Source: Geobacter sp.
GTDB lineage: Bacteria; Desulfobacterota; Desulfuromonadia; Geobacterales; Geobacteraceae
Assembly (NCBI GenBank): GCA_003574885.1
Contig: PJFC01000002.1
Coordinates: 248,001 to 312,000, forward strand
DNA: 64,000 nucleotides
Direction of reading: 5' to 3'
Shown here one piece after another: positions 27,673 to 63,685 of this stretch (within the stretch, counting starts at the first letter, position 1; each line of letters opens with the position of its first letter). Made by a program: the position numbers and the translations under genes. The notes beneath the pieces are model-generated. The model saw only the letters and a program-made list of their open reading frames with translations. It did not search any database and had not been told where the DNA came from.

Positions 27673-27987
27673 CGTCTGACGTGTGGCAATACCCGGCCTA
27701 ACAGCCATTGCAAGCTCTGAACAATCACCTCATATGGCTGCCGGAAGCGGGTCCTCCCAGGCCCCTTCCGGCTGCATCTTTATTGTCCATTCCACCTCTT
27801 AACTTTCTTCCATCTTCATTACCCGACGCTCGTCTGCAACGTGAAGCCTGACTTGACGGTGTTGATCAGCTGCACCAACAGGGGAGTACATGCATGTTCA
27901 ATTTCTGTTATGAAATTGTTTTTTTCTTGAAATATTTTTGGAGAACAGATAAGGTAAGCATACTTACGTCAACCGCAAATTATCACA
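27673..27987. other. Intergenic region with a terminator
   Basis: It has a long inverted repeat (TGCCGGAAG and CTTCCGGC, about 27736-27774) followed by CATCTTTATTG, a plausible terminator for the FN3-cytochrome gene. The remainder leads into the riboswitch and must contain its promoter. I see no gene. Confidence 0.55.
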
Positions 27988-28071
27988 GATACACGATAAT
28001 ACTAAACTATCCGCGAGGATAGGGCGGAAAGCCTACAGGGTCTCACTGAGACAGCCGGGTTGCCGAAATAT
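27988..28071 (+). promoter_or_regulatory. GEMM-class cyclic-dinucleotide riboswitch aptamer (cGAMP-type suspected)
   Basis: The sequence follows the GEMM fold. AATACTAAAC leads into a stem CTATCC-GCGA-GGATAG (28007-28022, GNRA loop), then the invariant GGCGGAAAGCC (28023-28033). A GTCT/AGAC stem (28040-28052) and CAGCCGGGTTGCCGA follow. The base I align with ligand-contacting G20 of the Vibrio Vc2 aptamer is A (28001). This A is the reported mark of GEMM-Ib members that sense 3',3'-cGAMP in Geobacter. The 3' strand also pairs with a downstream terminator arm, so ligand binding should switch transcription on. Confidence 0.87.
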
Positions 28072-28103
28072 CTCAAAACCAGATGTTCGGGCCCGGCTTT
28101 TTT
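28053..28103 (+). terminator. Riboswitch-controlled intrinsic terminator
   Basis: AGCCGGG (28053-28059) and CCGAA (28063-28067), both part of the aptamer, pair with TTCGG (28085-28089) and CCCGGCT (28092-28098), followed by a T run. Aptamer folding and terminator are therefore mutually exclusive. Confidence 0.82.
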
Positions 28104-28134: not shown

Positions 28135-29427
28135 ATGAGGAAAGTAGCAGCGTTTTTTTGTTTTTCGTTAGCCCTGACCGCATTGTTTACCTGGATTCCC
28201 AAAGCGAACGCAACTTCCACCCTCTATTCCAACAACTGTGCCGGTTGTCATGGCACAACACTAACCACCTGTGCCGGGTGTCATGCACATGGCGTCCATT
28301 CAAGCAGCGCAAAAACCGGCATCAACCTGACCGGCGTGACAAACAAGACATCCTATGCCCCCGGAGAGACGGTAAGCGTCACCATCAACGGCGGTTACCG
28401 GTCAGGATGGGTACGCGCAATTCTCTATGATCAGAACATGGTTGAAAAGGCCAGGAGCACCGGTCCTACCGGAGAAGGCGGCGGTGCAAGTTTCCCCATC
28501 ACCCTGACCGCACCCGCGCCGACGACGGCAGGCACCTATACCTGGAACGTCTCCTGGTATGGCAACCAGTATGACATAGCCACTGCCACCTTTGGCGCCC
28601 GCTGGACCCCCGATGCAAACAATCCTGACCACGGCGAAGAGATCGTCAGCACGAATTCCTTTACCGTAGCCACAGCAGTTCCTTCCGTCAAAATCGGGGT
28701 TTTCAGCAATGGAACGTGGTTCCTCGATGGTAATGGCAATGGGGCATGGAACGGCTCGACCACTGACCGGCAACTGGTCTTCGGTTTTCCCGGTTCGATT
28801 CCGGTGACAGGAGACTGGGACGGGAGCGGCACATCCAAAATCGGGGTATTTGACAAGGGAACATGGTATCTCGACGTAAACGGTAACGGTGTCTGGGATG
28901 GCGCGCCGTCTGACAAAAACCTTGTTTTCGGCGGCGGGCTCGCCGGGGCAGTTCCCGTAACCGGCGACTGGACCGGAACCGGCACAACCAAGGTTGGCGT
29001 GTATGTTGCCGGCAAATGGTACCTCGATCTTAACGGCAATGGTGTCTGGGACGGTGAAACGGTTGACGGACTCTATACCTTCGGCGATGGACTCACGGGC
29101 GCGGTTCCCGTAACCGGCGACTGGACAGGAAGTGGCACGACAAAGATCGGCGTGTATGTGGACGGTATCTGGTACCTTGATTTTAACGACAACAAGAAAT
29201 GGGATGGTCCGTCTCTTGACCGTCAGTACTACTTCGGCTTTAACGGAGCGTTACCGGTGACGGGCGACTGGAACGCGGACGGCAAATCGGAGATCGGTAC
29301 CTTCAACAACGGCATATGGTATCTGGATCTGAATGGCAACGGTGCCTGGAATGGAACGCCAAGCGACGTCACCTATAACCTCGGTGGCGGAGTTTCGGGA
29401 GCGGTGCCGGTAGCCGGGAAATGGTAA
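28135..29427 (+). CDS. Secreted diheme protein with five-fold C-terminal repeat
   Basis: ATG 28135 (AAGGAGA upstream) gives 430 aa. It has a signal peptide (1-26, ending ANA) and two heme-binding motifs CAGCH (35-39 and 46-50), next AHGVH. A beta domain (about 55-180, with YAPGETVSVTINGGYRSGW) is shared with the protein at 62471-63685. Five repeats of about 49 residues follow, with KIGVF..GTWYLD.NGNG.WDG as core, ending in AVPVAGKW at the C-terminus. DxNxNGxWD resembles calcium-binding loops. The riboswitch controls it. A role in extracellular electron transfer or surface anchoring is inferred. Confidence 0.8.
   Translation: MRKVAAFFCFSLALTALFTWIPKANATSTLYSNNCAGCHGTTLTTCAGCHAHGVHSSSAKTGINLTGVTNKTSYAPGETVSVTINGGYRSGWVRAILYDQNMVEKARSTGPTGEGGGASFPITLTAPAPTTAGTYTWNVSWYGNQYDIATATFGARWTPDANNPDHGEEIVSTNSFTVATAVPSVKIGVFSNGTWFLDGNGNGAWNGSTTDRQLVFGFPGSIPVTGDWDGSGTSKIGVFDKGTWYLDVNGNGVWDGAPSDKNLVFGGGLAGAVPVTGDWTGTGTTKVGVYVAGKWYLDLNGNGVWDGETVDGLYTFGDGLTGAVPVTGDWTGSGTTKIGVYVDGIWYLDFNDNKKWDGPSLDRQYYFGFNGALPVTGDWNADGKSEIGTFNNGIWYLDLNGNGAWNGTPSDVTYNLGGGVSGAVPVAGKW
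28690..29425 (+). repeat. Five-copy repeat module, copy A
   Basis: Five units of about 147 bp encode the KIGVF-GTWYLD-NGNGAWDG-PVTGDW repeat. The same module with five units lies at 47978-48730 and 53396-54125, in both cases at the end of a gene. Confidence 0.85.
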
Positions 29428-47971: not shown

Positions 47972-50900
47972 TTACCATTTGCCTGCGACGGGTAGTGCTC
48001 CGGCAAGGCCGGTACCAAAGTAATACAGACCGTCCGTCGGCGTGCCATCCCACGCACCGTTGCCATTCAGATCCACATACCACGTGCCGTTGTCGTACAC
48101 GCCGACTTTCGTGGAGTTGGTCGCCGTCCAGTCGCCGGTCACGGGGAGTGCGCCCGTAAGGCCTGCCCCAAAGGTATGCATGGCGTCTGTCGGTGTGCCG
48201 TCCCAGGCCCCGTTGCCGTTCAGGTCCACATACCAGGTTCCATTATCATAGACGCCGATCCTGGAAGCCCCGGTTCCTGCCCAGTCGCCGGTCACCGGTA
48301 CAGCTCCCGTAAGGCCGGTACCGAAGTAATACTGGCCGTCCGTCGGCGTGCCGTCCCAGGCACCGTTGCCGTTCAGGTCCACATACCAGATTCCATTATC
48401 GTACACGCCGATCTTGGTAGCACCGGTTCCCGTCCAGTTGCCGGTTACCGGTACTGCTCCGGTGAGTCCCGCGCCAAAGGTGTACATGGCATCAGTCGGT
48501 GTGCCGTCCCATATACCGTTGTCATTCAGATCGAGATACCAGGTTCCGTTGGAATAGAAACCTATTCTCTTGACGCCTGTACCTGTCCAGTCGCCGTTTA
48601 CGGGGATGGCGTTCGGGAACCCCCAGTTGAAGGAGAGGAGTTTATCGGTAGGCGTGCCGTCCCATGCACTGTTTCCGTTCATATCCAGATACAGTGTCCC
48701 GCTGTTGTACACACCGACTTTATCCGGTGCAATGACCGTGTACGACCGCATCATCTCGTTGTCTTCATGATCGATAATGTGGCAATGCCAGACGTAGAGT
48801 CCGGCGATGTCGAACTTCGCCTTGATCCGTGTAATCTGTGAAGGATAGGCGATTACGGTGTCCTTGTACCCCAGTTCGTTGGGGAGTGGCGGCGTCACCG
48901 TCCCGGCGACCGGCAACATGGTCACCATATCGAGGTTCTGACGATCAACCACCGCGAAGCGTACCAGATGAAGGTGGATCGGGTGGGCGTCCATAGTGGT
49001 GTTGTAAATCTCCCAGACCTCCGTGCTGTTCAGGGCAGGGGTCTCAGTAATAGCGTCGCCCCATTTTTTTGGGACGGCCATAACGTTGCCCATGCCATCG
49101 GTCGTCAGCACACCCAGCTGTGCCATTCGGGGACCCATGGGCGTTGGGAAATTTCCTGCTCCAACAGTAGCAGCGGCACAGTTGGCCAGGAAGTTCGGGT
49201 CTCCTGCGGTGGTGCTGAAGAGAGTGCTGATAATCGCCCCGTCGATGATGTTGACTTCCACGCAGACCTGGTCAGAAGACAATTCGTTGAGGGAGACCTG
49301 GCGAGTGTTCGTGGTGGCACCGAGCGAAGCTTCCGCGGGGAGAACAATATTTTGCGGTGTGGTGGTGGTGTCGGTGCCTGTCAAGCCGATGACGAAATCC
49401 ATAACTTGGCCGGTGGTTTGGGGGTCGGCAACATCACCGGGCAGAAATGGCTGTGGCGGGAACCCACCGAAGGGGGCGTCGGGTGCGGTATTGATCATGC
49501 GGACCCGGGTCCCGGCAGGCAGGCCGGTGAAATCAACGATCACGTCGGCCCGTTCAGCAGGGCCCATGAGCAGTGCTTGGCGTAGATCCGGTGCAGCCAC
49601 AGGAGCAGGAACGGTCCCGTTACCGGGAAGTGTCGTGGTTGAGCCGGTCACGATCTTGACGACATTGGGGAGGAACCCCTGATCGCCCCCTATCTGGTAA
49701 ATGGGGATTTCTGCACCGAGAGGATCATCGGCGGTTGCGGGCAAGAGATCTGGGCCGATGGTGTCATCGGCAGTTCCAGGTTTGCCATCGGCGCCGACAT
49801 TGTTCATGACGAACATCGACAGATTGAGGGTCCGTGCGTTGCAGCCATTGAGCAGGCGCAGGCGGTAGCGGACCGGTGCAACATTCAGTTGCGGCCAGGT
49901 GGTGCCATTGACCACCATGGTGTTGAAGAAGGCTTCCGGGTTCCAGATGCCGGAGATGTCTGAAGGACCGGTCGGAGTGCCAGTCCCCCCGATAAAGGGG
50001 CCGGTAAAGCCGTCGAAGAAGGTGCGGGTGGCAGGGAAGAAGAGTGTTCCGTCGGTGTTGAAGGAGCGGTCCTGGATAACCACTGGGATCTCGCGGATGG
50101 TATTGCGATACGCCGTGGTGAAGTTCGGGTCGCCGGTACCGCTTGGGGCTGGTCCCGGCAGGACGCCGGCCGCCGTGTCGTGGGATCCTCCACGGAGGAG
50201 CCAGAAGCCGGCGGGACCGGCATAGACGTTCAGCCGGGTCAGGCCAAGTGAGTGGTCATGATACCAGAGGGTGGTTGCCGGCTGGGTGTTCTCGTAGCTG
50301 TAAAAAGCGGAGCCGGGAACGGTGTTGGTATTGTCCGACTGGGTGAAGACAGATCCGCGCTCAGCATAGCTCACGGGAATGCCTTTGGTTCCCGGGGTCC
50401 CGGGTAGCCACCATGCCTCGGGGTAACCGTCGCTGTGGGGCTGCACGTGGGAGCCGTGGACATGGGTCACGATCGGAACCGGGCCGGTATAGGGAGCCGC
50501 TACCTCGGTGTGGCAATCGGTCCGGTTGGCGGGCATCATCATGCAGTTCGCTTTGGGAGGGTTGGCCCAGTGCAGGGTCTGATCGACACTGAACAGGTGG
50601 GGGAGGAAATTGCAGGCTGCAATGGTCTTGTCGGCAGAAGCTGCACAGGCAATCGGGTCCGTGACCAGATCATTGATCCAGCGCACCTTGGTTGGCGTAG
50701 CCGTGACAGCTTCGACCGTGAAGGCCGGATAGTTGAAGCTGGAGTTGGGGGCAGGGGCAATCCCTGGCCCCCCACCTTTGGCTGTTGAATCAGGTAGCGA
50801 GTCGGCAGCCCGGCCGTAACTCCAGACGGTCGTCGCAGGGAAGGGGCCAACCGTTGGCGGCGCTGTTCCAAGGGGATTGGGGAAAGAAGGCCCCCATACC

Positions 50901-51154
50901 CCCCCTGGCAGGATCTGCTGCTTGAACTGCCGGACCGCAATATCGTAATCGGCCGCTGGTGCGGGAGAGGTGACGCTCTTGGGCATCTCCGGCGGAATGA
51001 CGAGCGGAGTCACGTACTTGGGAATGGACAGCGGGTCAAGGGTTCCGCCGGGAACGGGGACCGCAAGGGCGGGGGAAAATGCCGCCAGGCTTAACAAGGT
51101 GAGGGCGGCAACGGGTAAAACAGTCACGTGCCATCGCAGATGAATTTTTTTCAT
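47972..51154 (-). CDS. Secreted multicopper oxidase with five C-terminal repeats (MCO 1)
   Basis: A 1060-aa protein with a signal peptide (1-31). Cupredoxin domains carry HVHGSHVQPHSDG (about residue 230), LWYHDHSLGLTR (about 298), HPIHLHLVRF (about 721) and YVWHCHIIDHEDNEMM (about 787), which supply type 1, 2 and 3 copper ligands. Five repeats (about 820-1060) match those of the diheme protein and MCO 2, ending LPVAGKW. Extracellular multicopper oxidases of Geobacter such as OmpB are implicated in Fe(III) oxide reduction. Equivalence here is inference. FKBP genes lie just upstream. Confidence 0.83.
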   Translation of the reverse strand: MKKIHLRWHVTVLPVAALTLLSLAAFSPALAVPVPGGTLDPLSIPKYVTPLVIPPEMPKSVTSPAPAADYDIAVRQFKQQILPGGVWGPSFPNPLGTAPPTVGPFPATTVWSYGRAADSLPDSTAKGGGPGIAPAPNSSFNYPAFTVEAVTATPTKVRWINDLVTDPIACAASADKTIAACNFLPHLFSVDQTLHWANPPKANCMMMPANRTDCHTEVAAPYTGPVPIVTHVHGSHVQPHSDGYPEAWWLPGTPGTKGIPVSYAERGSVFTQSDNTNTVPGSAFYSYENTQPATTLWYHDHSLGLTRLNVYAGPAGFWLLRGGSHDTAAGVLPGPAPSGTGDPNFTTAYRNTIREIPVVIQDRSFNTDGTLFFPATRTFFDGFTGPFIGGTGTPTGPSDISGIWNPEAFFNTMVVNGTTWPQLNVAPVRYRLRLLNGCNARTLNLSMFVMNNVGADGKPGTADDTIGPDLLPATADDPLGAEIPIYQIGGDQGFLPNVVKIVTGSTTTLPGNGTVPAPVAAPDLRQALLMGPAERADVIVDFTGLPAGTRVRMINTAPDAPFGGFPPQPFLPGDVADPQTTGQVMDFVIGLTGTDTTTTPQNIVLPAEASLGATTNTRQVSLNELSSDQVCVEVNIIDGAIISTLFSTTAGDPNFLANCAAATVGAGNFPTPMGPRMAQLGVLTTDGMGNVMAVPKKWGDAITETPALNSTEVWEIYNTTMDAHPIHLHLVRFAVVDRQNLDMVTMLPVAGTVTPPLPNELGYKDTVIAYPSQITRIKAKFDIAGLYVWHCHIIDHEDNEMMRSYTVIAPDKVGVYNSGTLYLDMNGNSAWDGTPTDKLLSFNWGFPNAIPVNGDWTGTGVKRIGFYSNGTWYLDLNDNGIWDGTPTDAMYTFGAGLTGAVPVTGNWTGTGATKIGVYDNGIWYVDLNGNGAWDGTPTDGQYYFGTGLTGAVPVTGDWAGTGASRIGVYDNGTWYVDLNGNGAWDGTPTDAMHTFGAGLTGALPVTGDWTATNSTKVGVYDNGTWYVDLNGNGAWDGTPTDGLYYFGTGLAGALPVAGKW
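47978..48730 (-). repeat. Five-copy repeat module, copy B
   Basis: Units of about 150 bp encode the same repeat as at 28690-29425. The last three units are nearly identical at DNA level, indicating recent gene conversion or expansion. Confidence 0.85.
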
Positions 51155-53392: not shown

Positions 53393-56300
53393 CTACCATT
53401 TGCCGATAATCGGTGCTGCTCCGGTCAGACCTGCTCCGAAGGCATGGGTGCCGTCGATTGGTGTGCCATCCCATGCTCCATTGCCGTTCAGGTCAAGATA
53501 CCAGGTTCCATTGTCAAACACGCCGATCTTCGTGGTCCCCGTTCCTGTCCAGTCACCAGTTGCCGGTACGGCTCCCGCGAGACCACCACCAAAATTAAAG
53601 ATACCGTCGGTTGGTGTACCGTCCCATGCGCCGTTACCGTTCAGGTCAAGATACCAGGTTCCATTGTCAAACACGCCGATCTTCGTGGTTCCGTTACCTG
53701 TCCAGTCACCGGTTACCGGTATGGCTCCCGTGAGACCGACGCCAAAATTAAAGATACCATCGGTTGGCGTACCGTCCCATGCTCCGTTGCCGTTCAGGTC
53801 GAGATACCAGGTTCCATTGACAAAAACGCCAATTTTCGTGGCTCCGTTACCGGTCCAGTCTCCAGTTACCGGCATGGCTCCCGGGAGACCGGCACCAAAG
53901 CTGTAGGTTGTGTTGCTGGCGCCATTTCCTGACATGTCGAGTATCCATGTTCCGTTATTGAACACGCCTACCTTGGCACCGTTACCATCCCATTCGCCGC
54001 TTACCGGAATGTCGCCAGGTATACCGAAAGTATAGAGCCTGTCACCGGCTGCATCCCACGCATTGTTGCCAGTAGCATCGAGATACCACTGACCATTGGT
54101 AAACACACCGATACGGTCATTGGGCTTGAAAACTATCGGCCGCATCATGTCGTTTTCTTCATGGCCCAGGAGGTGGCAATGCCACACATACTCGTGTCCG
54201 AAACTGGTAACTTGGTTGGTGACGGTAATCGGCGTGCCACTATAGGGGTCAACGCCGGTGAATTGCGTTGTGGTTCCCAGGGGCATCGTCACATCAAGCG
54301 GCCGGACACTGTCAGGAAGCGGGAACGGCACCGGCGGTGTCGTCGGCCTCATGGCGACGACAATGTCTTCCAGCGGGTTCATCCGAACGGTGTCCTTCCA
54401 CCCCAGTTCGTTGGCATCGGGGGGCCGTATGGCACCATCCCAGCCGACCCGGTTGATCACCTGCACATCGTTCAGATGGAAATGGATGGCATGGGTATCA
54501 ACGCCGTTATGGGTGATCTTCCAGAGTTGGGGCTTGCCATTGGCAAGGTGCTCGGTCGGTGGGTCTATGTACCCCAGGGGGATCGTCGTCTGGGTCAGGG
54601 CACTGGTAAATGGCAGTTCAACGCCCAGTGTGGCGTTCATCCGTCCATAATCCGCGGTGAAGAGTTCCTGGATGGTCTTCGGTCGCATCGGCATCGTTAC
54701 CGGTGTGGTTGCGCCGACTGGAGTGAAGGTCAGAGAGGTGGCAGAGATTGTTGAATACGTGTCAGTAGCTGCGGTATACGGCGCGGGATAACCCGTTTGC
54801 GGAACCACCGGTGCCGGCTGGGATGCCGCATAGATCGTCGGCAGCGCAGCGGTTAACGGTGCCGGATTGAAGGGTACGGGAGTAGCTGCCGCTACCCGGA
54901 ACTGCATGATGGTCCGGGTGTTGGGTCCGTAACCGGGTTTTGTCGAAGGTGCGCCACCCATCCAGGTATTGTCCGGGCCGTTTGTGTAGTAGTCGATGCG
55001 TGGATCGAACGCCGGTACCGGCGCAGGGGCGTCGTTGTACAGAATGACGGTCTTGCCGGCATACGCGGAGAAGTCGACGATGACATCGGCACGCTCAGCC
55101 GGACCAAGGAAGAGCGCCTTGTCCAGCACATTCAGTACCACGATGTTTCTGCGATTGTACTCATAGTTGACCGGTTGGGGATCGATCACGGCAGGCGCCG
55201 GCAAGAGGCCGCCTTCGGTGCCTATCTGGATCATCGACGGACCAGCCGTGACTGGATCAGGCACACCGCCAGCCCTTGAATCAGTCGGCCAGGTTGGCGG
55301 GAAACAGCCAACCGGTGTTCCGGGTGCTCCGGTGCAGGTGCAGTCAGTCGTGACGGTTGCACTGCAGGCCGGCCGAGGGAGTGCCGGAACTATCTTGACT
55401 TCTTTTTGATACCCGGGATTCGGCAGGCCGGTCACGGGATCAAACGGGGTAAGGGTAGGGTCGGCGGTAAATAACGACAGGTTGAACATCCGGTCGTTGG
55501 CCGCATTCAGGATCCGCAAACGATATGCCTGCGGCTGCACATCGAGATACGGATAGGCCGTTCCGTTGACAACCGGCGTATCCATGAAACTTTCCGGCAC
55601 GCCGGACACGTTAAATGACGGCAGTCCGGGGAACTGGACGGGGAACACCGGCCAGAACCAGGGGCCGTAATCCCACCGGCCATAATTGTTCGCGCCAGTC
55701 AGGTCCGGGTTGGTCGGCCACTGGTTGGTCTCGTACACATGGGGGAACCAGAGGTCGCCATACACGCCCCATTTGGGGTTGGTCCACTTCGCATCCTGGA
55801 CGGCAACGTCCTGGGGTACGAAGGATTTGTCCTGTATGACCAGAGGGATGAGGTGAGCAAGGTCGTTTGCAGTGTCAGTCAAAGTGGCCGGGTTGCTGAT
55901 GGTTCCCGGGACGCCGGCGCTCTTTAGTGCCGCTTCTTCCGTCGGGTCAATGATGATGTAACCAGCTGCCTCGCCGGCATAGACGTTGAGGCGCGTGATC
56001 CCGTAGGCGTGGTCGTGGTAGAACATCAGCCTGCCGCTCTGGTTGTTGGTATAGAAATAGGTAGACACGCCGGGCGGTTCGACACCGCCGTCCATGTCGG
56101 GGACATTTTGCATACTCGCCCCTGTGGTATAGGGTGTGCTTGTCTCCCCGGCAGGAGTAATCCACTGGTGAGGGGTTCCGTCGCTGATCCACGGAGTGTG
56201 CCCGCCATGGAGATGGAGATCGGCTCGGTTCTGCGTGTAGGCATTCATCCCGTCGGGGCCCATCCCCGCTCCCATATATGTGGTGTCCACCGGTATGAAG

Positions 56301-56896
56301 AGGTCGCCCGCACCGTTAACGCCAAGTTCGTTGAAGAACTTGATACGTACCGGCTTGTTCTTCGTGGCAATGATCAGAGGTCCCAGGTACTGCGATGAAT
56401 GGTCCGTACCATTTTTCTGGTAATATCCCCGGAGCTTGGTGCCGGTTCCCAATGTATCCGCCGTGAGGGGAAGGTCCGAATGCATCCGTGCCCGGTAGTC
56501 CTTCAATCCGATCTCGTAATAATCAGAGCCCGTATACGTAGCAATGTCCGGAGTCGCAACGGGGAGGTACTGCCCGAGGTTGTTTGCGCCCAGTGCGGTT
56601 CCGGCTGGTCGTGCACCGGATCCCAGGCCCGGCAGCGAGTCGACGAACTTCCTGAGTGGCGTTCCGGAATTGCTTACGGCGCTTTTGTACGTACCCGTGA
56701 CATCAGTATACTGCCAGTTGCCTGCCGGGCTGTTGGCGTAGAACGTGCCTCCGCTGGGAGTTGCGGACGCCGGATAATCGGGCGGTGGTGGCGTCGCCAG
56801 GGTTCCCGGTCCCGCCTGGACCGGCATAACTCCCAGTGGAAGGGCAGCTAGCGCCAGTACCAGGCTCATAATGATCGAAAATCGTTGCCTGTTCAT
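53393..56896 (-). CDS. Secreted multicopper oxidase with five C-terminal repeats (MCO 2)
   Basis: ATG 56896 has AGGAGG upstream and gives 1167 aa with a signal peptide (about 1-29). Copper motifs are LHLHGGHTPWISDG (about 227), LMFYHDHAYGITR (about 288), HAIHFHLND (about 800) and YVWHCHLLGHEENDMM (about 900). Five repeats (about 930-1167) end in APIIGKW. The long cupredoxin region suggests inserted loops compared with MCO 1. It is likely extracellular, with copper-dependent oxidase or metal-oxidation activity. The pair probably arose by duplication. Confidence 0.83.
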   Translation of the reverse strand: MNRQRFSIIMSLVLALAALPLGVMPVQAGPGTLATPPPPDYPASATPSGGTFYANSPAGNWQYTDVTGTYKSAVSNSGTPLRKFVDSLPGLGSGARPAGTALGANNLGQYLPVATPDIATYTGSDYYEIGLKDYRARMHSDLPLTADTLGTGTKLRGYYQKNGTDHSSQYLGPLIIATKNKPVRIKFFNELGVNGAGDLFIPVDTTYMGAGMGPDGMNAYTQNRADLHLHGGHTPWISDGTPHQWITPAGETSTPYTTGASMQNVPDMDGGVEPPGVSTYFYTNNQSGRLMFYHDHAYGITRLNVYAGEAAGYIIIDPTEEAALKSAGVPGTISNPATLTDTANDLAHLIPLVIQDKSFVPQDVAVQDAKWTNPKWGVYGDLWFPHVYETNQWPTNPDLTGANNYGRWDYGPWFWPVFPVQFPGLPSFNVSGVPESFMDTPVVNGTAYPYLDVQPQAYRLRILNAANDRMFNLSLFTADPTLTPFDPVTGLPNPGYQKEVKIVPALPRPACSATVTTDCTCTGAPGTPVGCFPPTWPTDSRAGGVPDPVTAGPSMIQIGTEGGLLPAPAVIDPQPVNYEYNRRNIVVLNVLDKALFLGPAERADVIVDFSAYAGKTVILYNDAPAPVPAFDPRIDYYTNGPDNTWMGGAPSTKPGYGPNTRTIMQFRVAAATPVPFNPAPLTAALPTIYAASQPAPVVPQTGYPAPYTAATDTYSTISATSLTFTPVGATTPVTMPMRPKTIQELFTADYGRMNATLGVELPFTSALTQTTIPLGYIDPPTEHLANGKPQLWKITHNGVDTHAIHFHLNDVQVINRVGWDGAIRPPDANELGWKDTVRMNPLEDIVVAMRPTTPPVPFPLPDSVRPLDVTMPLGTTTQFTGVDPYSGTPITVTNQVTSFGHEYVWHCHLLGHEENDMMRPIVFKPNDRIGVFTNGQWYLDATGNNAWDAAGDRLYTFGIPGDIPVSGEWDGNGAKVGVFNNGTWILDMSGNGASNTTYSFGAGLPGAMPVTGDWTGNGATKIGVFVNGTWYLDLNGNGAWDGTPTDGIFNFGVGLTGAIPVTGDWTGNGTTKIGVFDNGTWYLDLNGNGAWDGTPTDGIFNFGGGLAGAVPATGDWTGTGTTKIGVFDNGTWYLDLNGNGAWDGTPIDGTHAFGAGLTGAAPIIGKW
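53396..54125 (-). repeat. Five-copy repeat module, copy C
   Basis: Units encode KIGVFDNGTWYLDLNGNGAW-type repeats. Two adjacent units share long identical DNA runs (GGTTCCATTGTCAAACACGC around 53500 and 53660). Confidence 0.85.
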
Positions 56897-56934
56897 GAAT
56901 CCTCCTTTGAATTGCGTGTGCATGTTCCGTTTAC

Positions 56935-62470: not shown

Positions 62471-63685
62471 TCATTGCCGCACAGTTGTTACCGCCGTTGC
62501 CTGGTCGACGTCCGCATCGTTGTCAACAACGGTGGCAGTCCAGGTTATATCCCCCAATACAGTGGGTGTGAATGGTGGGAATTTGAACATGACCGTTTCG
62601 GCCGGTGGTACGGAGACGTTGATGGTTTCGCTGTAGACCTGGTTGCCGTTCTGCATGCCGACCAGGGTTGCCGTGGAGGTCCCGGGGCCGGTCCCCTCAT
62701 TGAAGAGCCAGAGGTGGAAATTCACCGAGTTCGCCTTACCTTTGTCCTTCAGTTTGATCTCTTTGGTTGCCATGAACTTCTGGATGTCGAAGTCGAACTC
62801 GGTAAGCGGCGGTGTAGTGACGCCGCTCCCGGCAAGGTTCAGGACGGCCGGGTTGGTGACCGGGTCATTGCTGGTGATGTTCAGGCAGCCGGTGTCGGTA
62901 GTTGTATCCACTGGCGCGTAGACTACCGACAGGGTCTGACTGCTCCCCGGGGTGACCGTGAACGGCGCCGGCGGTGACCAGGTGAACTCCGTGCTGGTCC
63001 CGGTGCAGAGGGCGATAGCGGTGACGTTGAGATCAGCGGTGCCCGTGTTTTGCACCAGAGTTGTCAGTGTTGCGGACCCGCCGGTGAGGATGGAGCCGAA
63101 ATTCAGGGAGGCGGGGTTCAGGGCGATGCTCGGCGTTAGTACCGGGGTTACCGCGACCGTAAAGGAGTTGGTGCTGACGATTTCCTGCCCGTGTTCGGGG
63201 TTGTTCGGGTCGGGTGTCCAGCGTGGTCCGAAAAAGGCGCCGCTGGCGTCGAACTGGTTGCCGTACCAGGCGACGTTCCAGGTGTAATCTCCCGCTGCCG
63301 TGGGCGCCGGTGCGGTCAGGGTGATCGGGAAGCCGGAGCCGCCTCCAATTCCGGACGGGCCGGTGCTTCTTGCCAGCTCAACCATGTTCTGGTCATAGAG
63401 GATCGCACGAATCCATCCTGTCCGGTAGCCACCGGTAATGTTGACGCTCACTGTTTCGCCGGGTGCATAGGTCTGTTTGTCGGTCGTGCCGGCAACGTTG
63501 AGGTCGCTTTTTGTGCTGTCCGTGTGTACGCCGTGGGCGTGGCAGCCGTTGCATGTTGAAGTCGCGCCATGGCAGTCGGCACAGTTGGTGGTGTAGTAAC
63601 CCGAAAATGCATGTGAATTAGGTACCCACGACATCCAGGCGGCGAGCGCCAGAATGCAACAGAATACCAAGGATGCTTTTTTCAT
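62471..63685 (-). CDS. Secreted diheme protein with ASH-type beta domain (diheme 2)
   Basis: A 404-aa protein. It has a signal peptide (1-26) and CADCH (35-39) and CNGCH (45-49). A beta domain with YAPGETVSVNITGGYRTGW is about 75% identical by eye to the N-terminal half of the 28135-29427 protein. After residue 190 it diverges. An HYDIN/ASH-like domain (LNPASLNFGSILTGGSAT onward) replaces the five repeats, followed by an Ig-like C-terminal domain. GGAG lies before the ATG. It is probably periplasmic or extracellular. Confidence 0.78.
   Translation of the reverse strand: MKKASLVFCCILALAAWMSWVPNSHAFSGYYTTNCADCHGATSTCNGCHAHGVHTDSTKSDLNVAGTTDKQTYAPGETVSVNITGGYRTGWIRAILYDQNMVELARSTGPSGIGGGSGFPITLTAPAPTAAGDYTWNVAWYGNQFDASGAFFGPRWTPDPNNPEHGQEIVSTNSFTVAVTPVLTPSIALNPASLNFGSILTGGSATLTTLVQNTGTADLNVTAIALCTGTSTEFTWSPPAPFTVTPGSSQTLSVVYAPVDTTTDTGCLNITSNDPVTNPAVLNLAGSGVTTPPLTEFDFDIQKFMATKEIKLKDKGKANSVNFHLWLFNEGTGPGTSTATLVGMQNGNQVYSETINVSVPPAETVMFKFPPFTPTVLGDITWTATVVDNDADVDQATAVTTVRQ

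Follow-up and report, generated by a model that had tools for sequence, protein, structure and literature searches.

The segment at 27991-28103 of the window (the whole 64-kb stretch of DNA that was analyzed) is predicted to be a 3',3'-cGAMP-sensing riboswitch of the GEMM-Ib class that switches on, at the level of transcription, the gene of a 430-amino-acid (aa) diheme protein. We assign this reading a probability of roughly 0.87. Through riboswitches of the GEMM-Ib family, Geobacter-like bacteria turn on electron-transfer genes when cGAMP rises. The initial annotation had proposed a cGAMP-type ON switch at this site, and the proposal is supported by the adenine at nucleotide 20 (A20), a full set of ligand contacts, an overlap between aptamer and terminator, the same arrangement at orthologous genes, and two predicted Hypr-type cyclases.

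When the window was scanned with cmscan, the c-di-GMP-I (GEMM-I) model RF01051 matched over its full length at 27991-28067 on the plus strand, scoring 47.0 bits (gathering cutoff, 35 bits) with an E value, scaled to the 64-kb window, of 4.6e-6. The full GEMM core that had been claimed is therefore present, and this match, copy L015 of the genome, was the only riboswitch found in the window. The 5' strand of P1 (AGATA..CG) lies at 27987-27995; its potential pairing partners are 28069-28073 for AGATA and 28064-28065 for CG, and the previously proposed extent of 27988-28103 corresponds to the region from this strand through the end of the U-tract. The P1 core, GAUA/UAUC, forms standard pairs in 38 to 39 of 42 distinct A20 aptamers. 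Covariation in P1 was not significant, since the observed mean was reached by 353 of 5,000 permuted pairings and by 1,291 of 5,000 after dereplication. The predicted P1 is supported by conservation alone, its pairs being conserved rather than covarying. A 6-bp inverted repeat, ATTATC/GATAAT, at 27979-27984 and 27995-28000 was considered as an anti-aptamer hairpin that would mask the junction and was rejected; it is probably due to chance, because the ortholog L061 lacks it. A literature search found no mention of the aptamer sequence, a plasmid search found no copy on plasmids, and no sigma-70 site emerged from a consensus promoter scan.

The base that discriminates between ligands, equivalent to G20 of Vc2 and to A14 in the numbering of the cGAMP-aptamer crystal, is an adenine at 28001 on the plus strand by alignment to RF01051, as the initial annotation had read it (PMC6456294, PMC9481103, PMC6274999). 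In the Gmet_0970 switch, changing A20 to G was shown by experiment to convert cGAMP selectivity into c-di-GMP selectivity (PMC6456294), and the same A/G rule at nucleotide 20 (nt20) is described in PMC9481103. All 10 ligand contacts of the crystallized cGAMP aptamer (G8, A9, A11, A12, A14, C15, G40, A41, A42, and C75; PMC6274999) are present, at 27995-28002, 28027-28029, and 28063, the mapping to window positions being our own. From these features we infer that the aptamer at 27991-28067 belongs to the GEMM-Ib class and has 3',3'-cGAMP as its ligand. Some Geobacter GEMM-I aptamers answer both dinucleotides, as reported for the OmcST switch of Geobacter sulfurreducens (PMC6456294), and the genome also carries copies with G at nt20 (G20) and 18 GGDEF hits, mostly canonical. 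It is nevertheless rather unlikely that c-di-GMP, alone or alongside cGAMP, acts as the cellular ligand of the switch, given A20 and the complete set of cGAMP contacts; moreover, the genome's mixed-scaffold copies (L014 and L016), which have G20 with C21 and C22, differ from the copy at 27991-28067.

Downstream of the ligand-binding core, the predicted cGAMP aptamer runs into an intrinsic terminator at 28053-28103 on the plus strand, composed of a 5' arm (28053-28073), a loop (28074-28080), a 3' arm (28081-28098), and a U-tract of six T residues (28098-28103). This bulged terminator was missed by a simple terminator scan. Folding with ViennaRNA gave the stem at 28053-28098 an energy of -24.1 kcal/mol, compared with -10.4 ± 2.8 kcal/mol for 1,000 mononucleotide shuffles, none of which was as low. 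Segment 28053-28073 doubles as the 3' strand of the aptamer, including the P1 partner of 27987-27995, and as the 5' arm of the terminator, which confirms the shared strand that had been claimed. Forcing P1 in ViennaRNA abolished the terminator, indicating that the ligand-bound aptamer and the terminator are mutually exclusive, as would be expected if the element is a transcriptional ON switch. The terminator fold (-46.2) greatly exceeds the P1-forced fold (-25.3) in equilibrium stability, so that switching would have to be kinetic, as is usual for such switches. Of 44 A20 switches compared across this genome and related ones, most show the same overlap and a U-tract. The high stability of the terminator would also suit a decayed or inert aptamer followed by a constitutive attenuator, or by a terminator that merely ends upstream transcription. 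This explanation is very improbable, since all contact bases are conserved, the aptamer is retained at orthologs with 77 to 90% protein identity, and the use of the aptamer 3' strand as the terminator 5' arm recurs in about 40 switches.

Under the proposed mechanism of cGAMP-dependent antitermination, 28053-28073 would pair with 28081-28098 when no ligand is present, and RNA polymerase would halt at about 28103. cGAMP would bind at the three-way junction, with A28001 opposite the adenine, and stabilize P1 and P3. The ligand-bound aptamer would then keep its 3' strand, allowing transcription to run on into the gene at 28135-29427. The switch would thus act in the ON direction in vivo, and the 430-aa protein may serve in extracellular electron transfer.

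The cGAMP could be supplied by two enzymes of the same genome, a GacA ortholog and a GSU1937-like enzyme. One locus (L051), next to a hisS-like gene, encodes a REC-GGDEF protein whose Hypr residue is Ser. Its best PDB match is 6d9m, with 249 bits compared with 145 bits for the next best, PleD. The 6d9m entry is annotated as a fusion of a GAF-containing response-receiver diguanylate cyclase, and we take it to be the GmGacA construct. The L051 protein is predicted to be a close GacA ortholog and hence a cGAMP synthase. A GGDDF protein (L057/L095) resembles GSU1937: its Hypr position is occupied by Ser, and its membrane N terminus is HAMP-like. It is predicted to be a second Hypr enzyme of that kind. 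On this evidence, the host genome can probably make cGAMP.

The 3.47-Mb genome contains 23 RF01051 hits, with A at nt20 in 15 and G in 8, and GEMM-I is present in 94 of 97 related genomes. By our own reading of the gene sequences, the A20 copies lie upstream of a pilM-like gene cluster (L034), an L,D-transpeptidase-like gene (L032), and heme-protein genes (L036, L039, and L041), among others. These targets parallel the cGAMP regulon of G. sulfurreducens, which includes pilMNOP, transpeptidases, and cytochromes (PMC6456294). One genomic copy (L013; L036:295-371; G000:C10:348094-348170) has A20 within an otherwise canonical c-di-GMP-type scaffold (GAGC) and lies 5' of a gene for a cytochrome with six CxxCH motifs. 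Another, a G20 aptamer (L005, within L030; G000:C13:29595-29668, minus strand), is located directly 5' of a REC-GGDEF cyclase gene, where it possibly mediates feedback of c-di-GMP on its own synthesis.

Several GEMM-I copies occur in mixed or unusual tandems. At L027 (1528-1603 and 1725-1814; G000:C10:101927-102213), an A20 switch with its own terminator is followed about 120 nucleotides later by a canonical G20 c-di-GMP-I aptamer that scored 81 bits; the leader can mask the ribosome-binding site (GTACCTC...GGAGGTAC), and a gene for a surface-type protein lies downstream. The order of one or two A20 aptamers and then a G20 aptamer is kept in eight relatives (L097, L098, L099, L108, L110, L111, L113, and L121), so that the cGAMP-plus-c-di-GMP tandem is conserved within a single leader in nine genomes. 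Such a tandem is possibly a two-messenger gate, and it is absent from the logic-gate table of PMC9481103. In another genome (G013; L107:657-1371), three A20 switches are followed by a decayed-looking fourth aptamer with C at nt20, which occupies the place of the relatives' c-di-GMP aptamer. The second aptamer of L068 (1171 on the reverse strand; 2292-2367 on the plus strand) has G at nt20 and is otherwise of the cGAMP type; it stands in tandem with an A20 copy upstream of the same diheme gene and shows natural variation at the base that governs selectivity.

The gene predicted to be controlled by the switch in the window (28135-29427, plus strand) encodes a predicted secreted protein of 430 aa. 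Its layout comprises a signal-like helix, two CxxCH motifs, an Ig/macroglobulin-like sandwich with a weak MG2 hit, and then about five C-terminal repeats of approximately 50 aa; the first 185 residues make up the N-terminal diheme and Ig-like module. The two CxxCH motifs agree with the earlier description of a diheme protein. The signal-peptide-like N terminus, the sole basis for placing the protein, suggests a surface location. For the full-length protein, the structure model was of low quality (pLDDT, 57.9). Modeling of the N-terminal module yielded the signal helix, a heme segment at low confidence, and the sandwich, with weak PDB matches (best E value, 2.5e-3). Thirty-seven columns of the module are invariant, including both CxxCH motifs, His52, and His166, and no Pfam or NCBIfam family matched the module above cutoff. 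A third copy in the genome, a 404-aa paralog at 62471-63685 on the minus strand, has the same diheme/Ig module together with a choice-of-anchor D domain and is not preceded by GEMM.

The initial annotation had emphasized the repeats, as shared with two multicopper oxidases, and the repeat motif does recur in two Cu-oxidase_2 proteins encoded at 47972-51154 and 53393-56923, both on the minus strand. The riboswitch tracks the N-terminal module of about 185 residues instead. Among loci matching the 430-aa protein, one to three GEMM-I aptamers lie upstream at 23 of 28 loci with the N-terminal module, whereas none was found at nine repeat-only loci, three of which are sites in this genome judged from the genome-wide RF01051 hit list. 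This contrast (Fisher P = 1.6e-5) is indicative, since related loci are not independent. Neither multicopper oxidase gene has a GEMM aptamer. The switches at module loci carried A20 in 29 of the first 30 examined, the exception being the second copy of L068 (G), and in all 7 found later. An A20 switch also precedes the orthologous genes of Geobacter sp. AOG1, Geomobilimonas luticola, and an uncultured Geobacter MAG. At the sequence level, the riboswitch is linked to the signal/diheme/Ig-like module and not to the C-terminal repeats. It is about as likely as not that the diheme and Ig-like module belongs to the conserved core of cGAMP targets across the Geobacterales, its gene usually carrying one to three cGAMP-type switches whatever its variable C terminus. 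In that case, the module would stand out as a redox unit employed in solid-metal respiration.

The site adds a concrete member of the cGAMP regulon beyond the model Geobacter species and draws attention to a heme module, as yet lacking annotation, whose genes recur under cGAMP-type switches. Compared with the RF01051 model, the aptamer is a full-length match but has A rather than G at nt20, and its C21-U22 pair with G-G instead of the usual G-C. By published description, it resembles the GEMM-Ib switches of GSU1761 (pgcA) and Gmet_0970 in the A at nt20, the ligand contacts, a secreted heme-protein gene downstream, and the presence of GacA in the genome (PMC6456294, PMC8835794), and it shares with the pgcA switch the overlap between 3' strand and terminator (PMC6456294). 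Its target differs from theirs, being a diheme and Ig-like module with C-terminal repeats. The switch at 27991-28103, by sequence a member of the known GEMM-Ib class, is ordinary in kind; its modest novelty lies in the target module.
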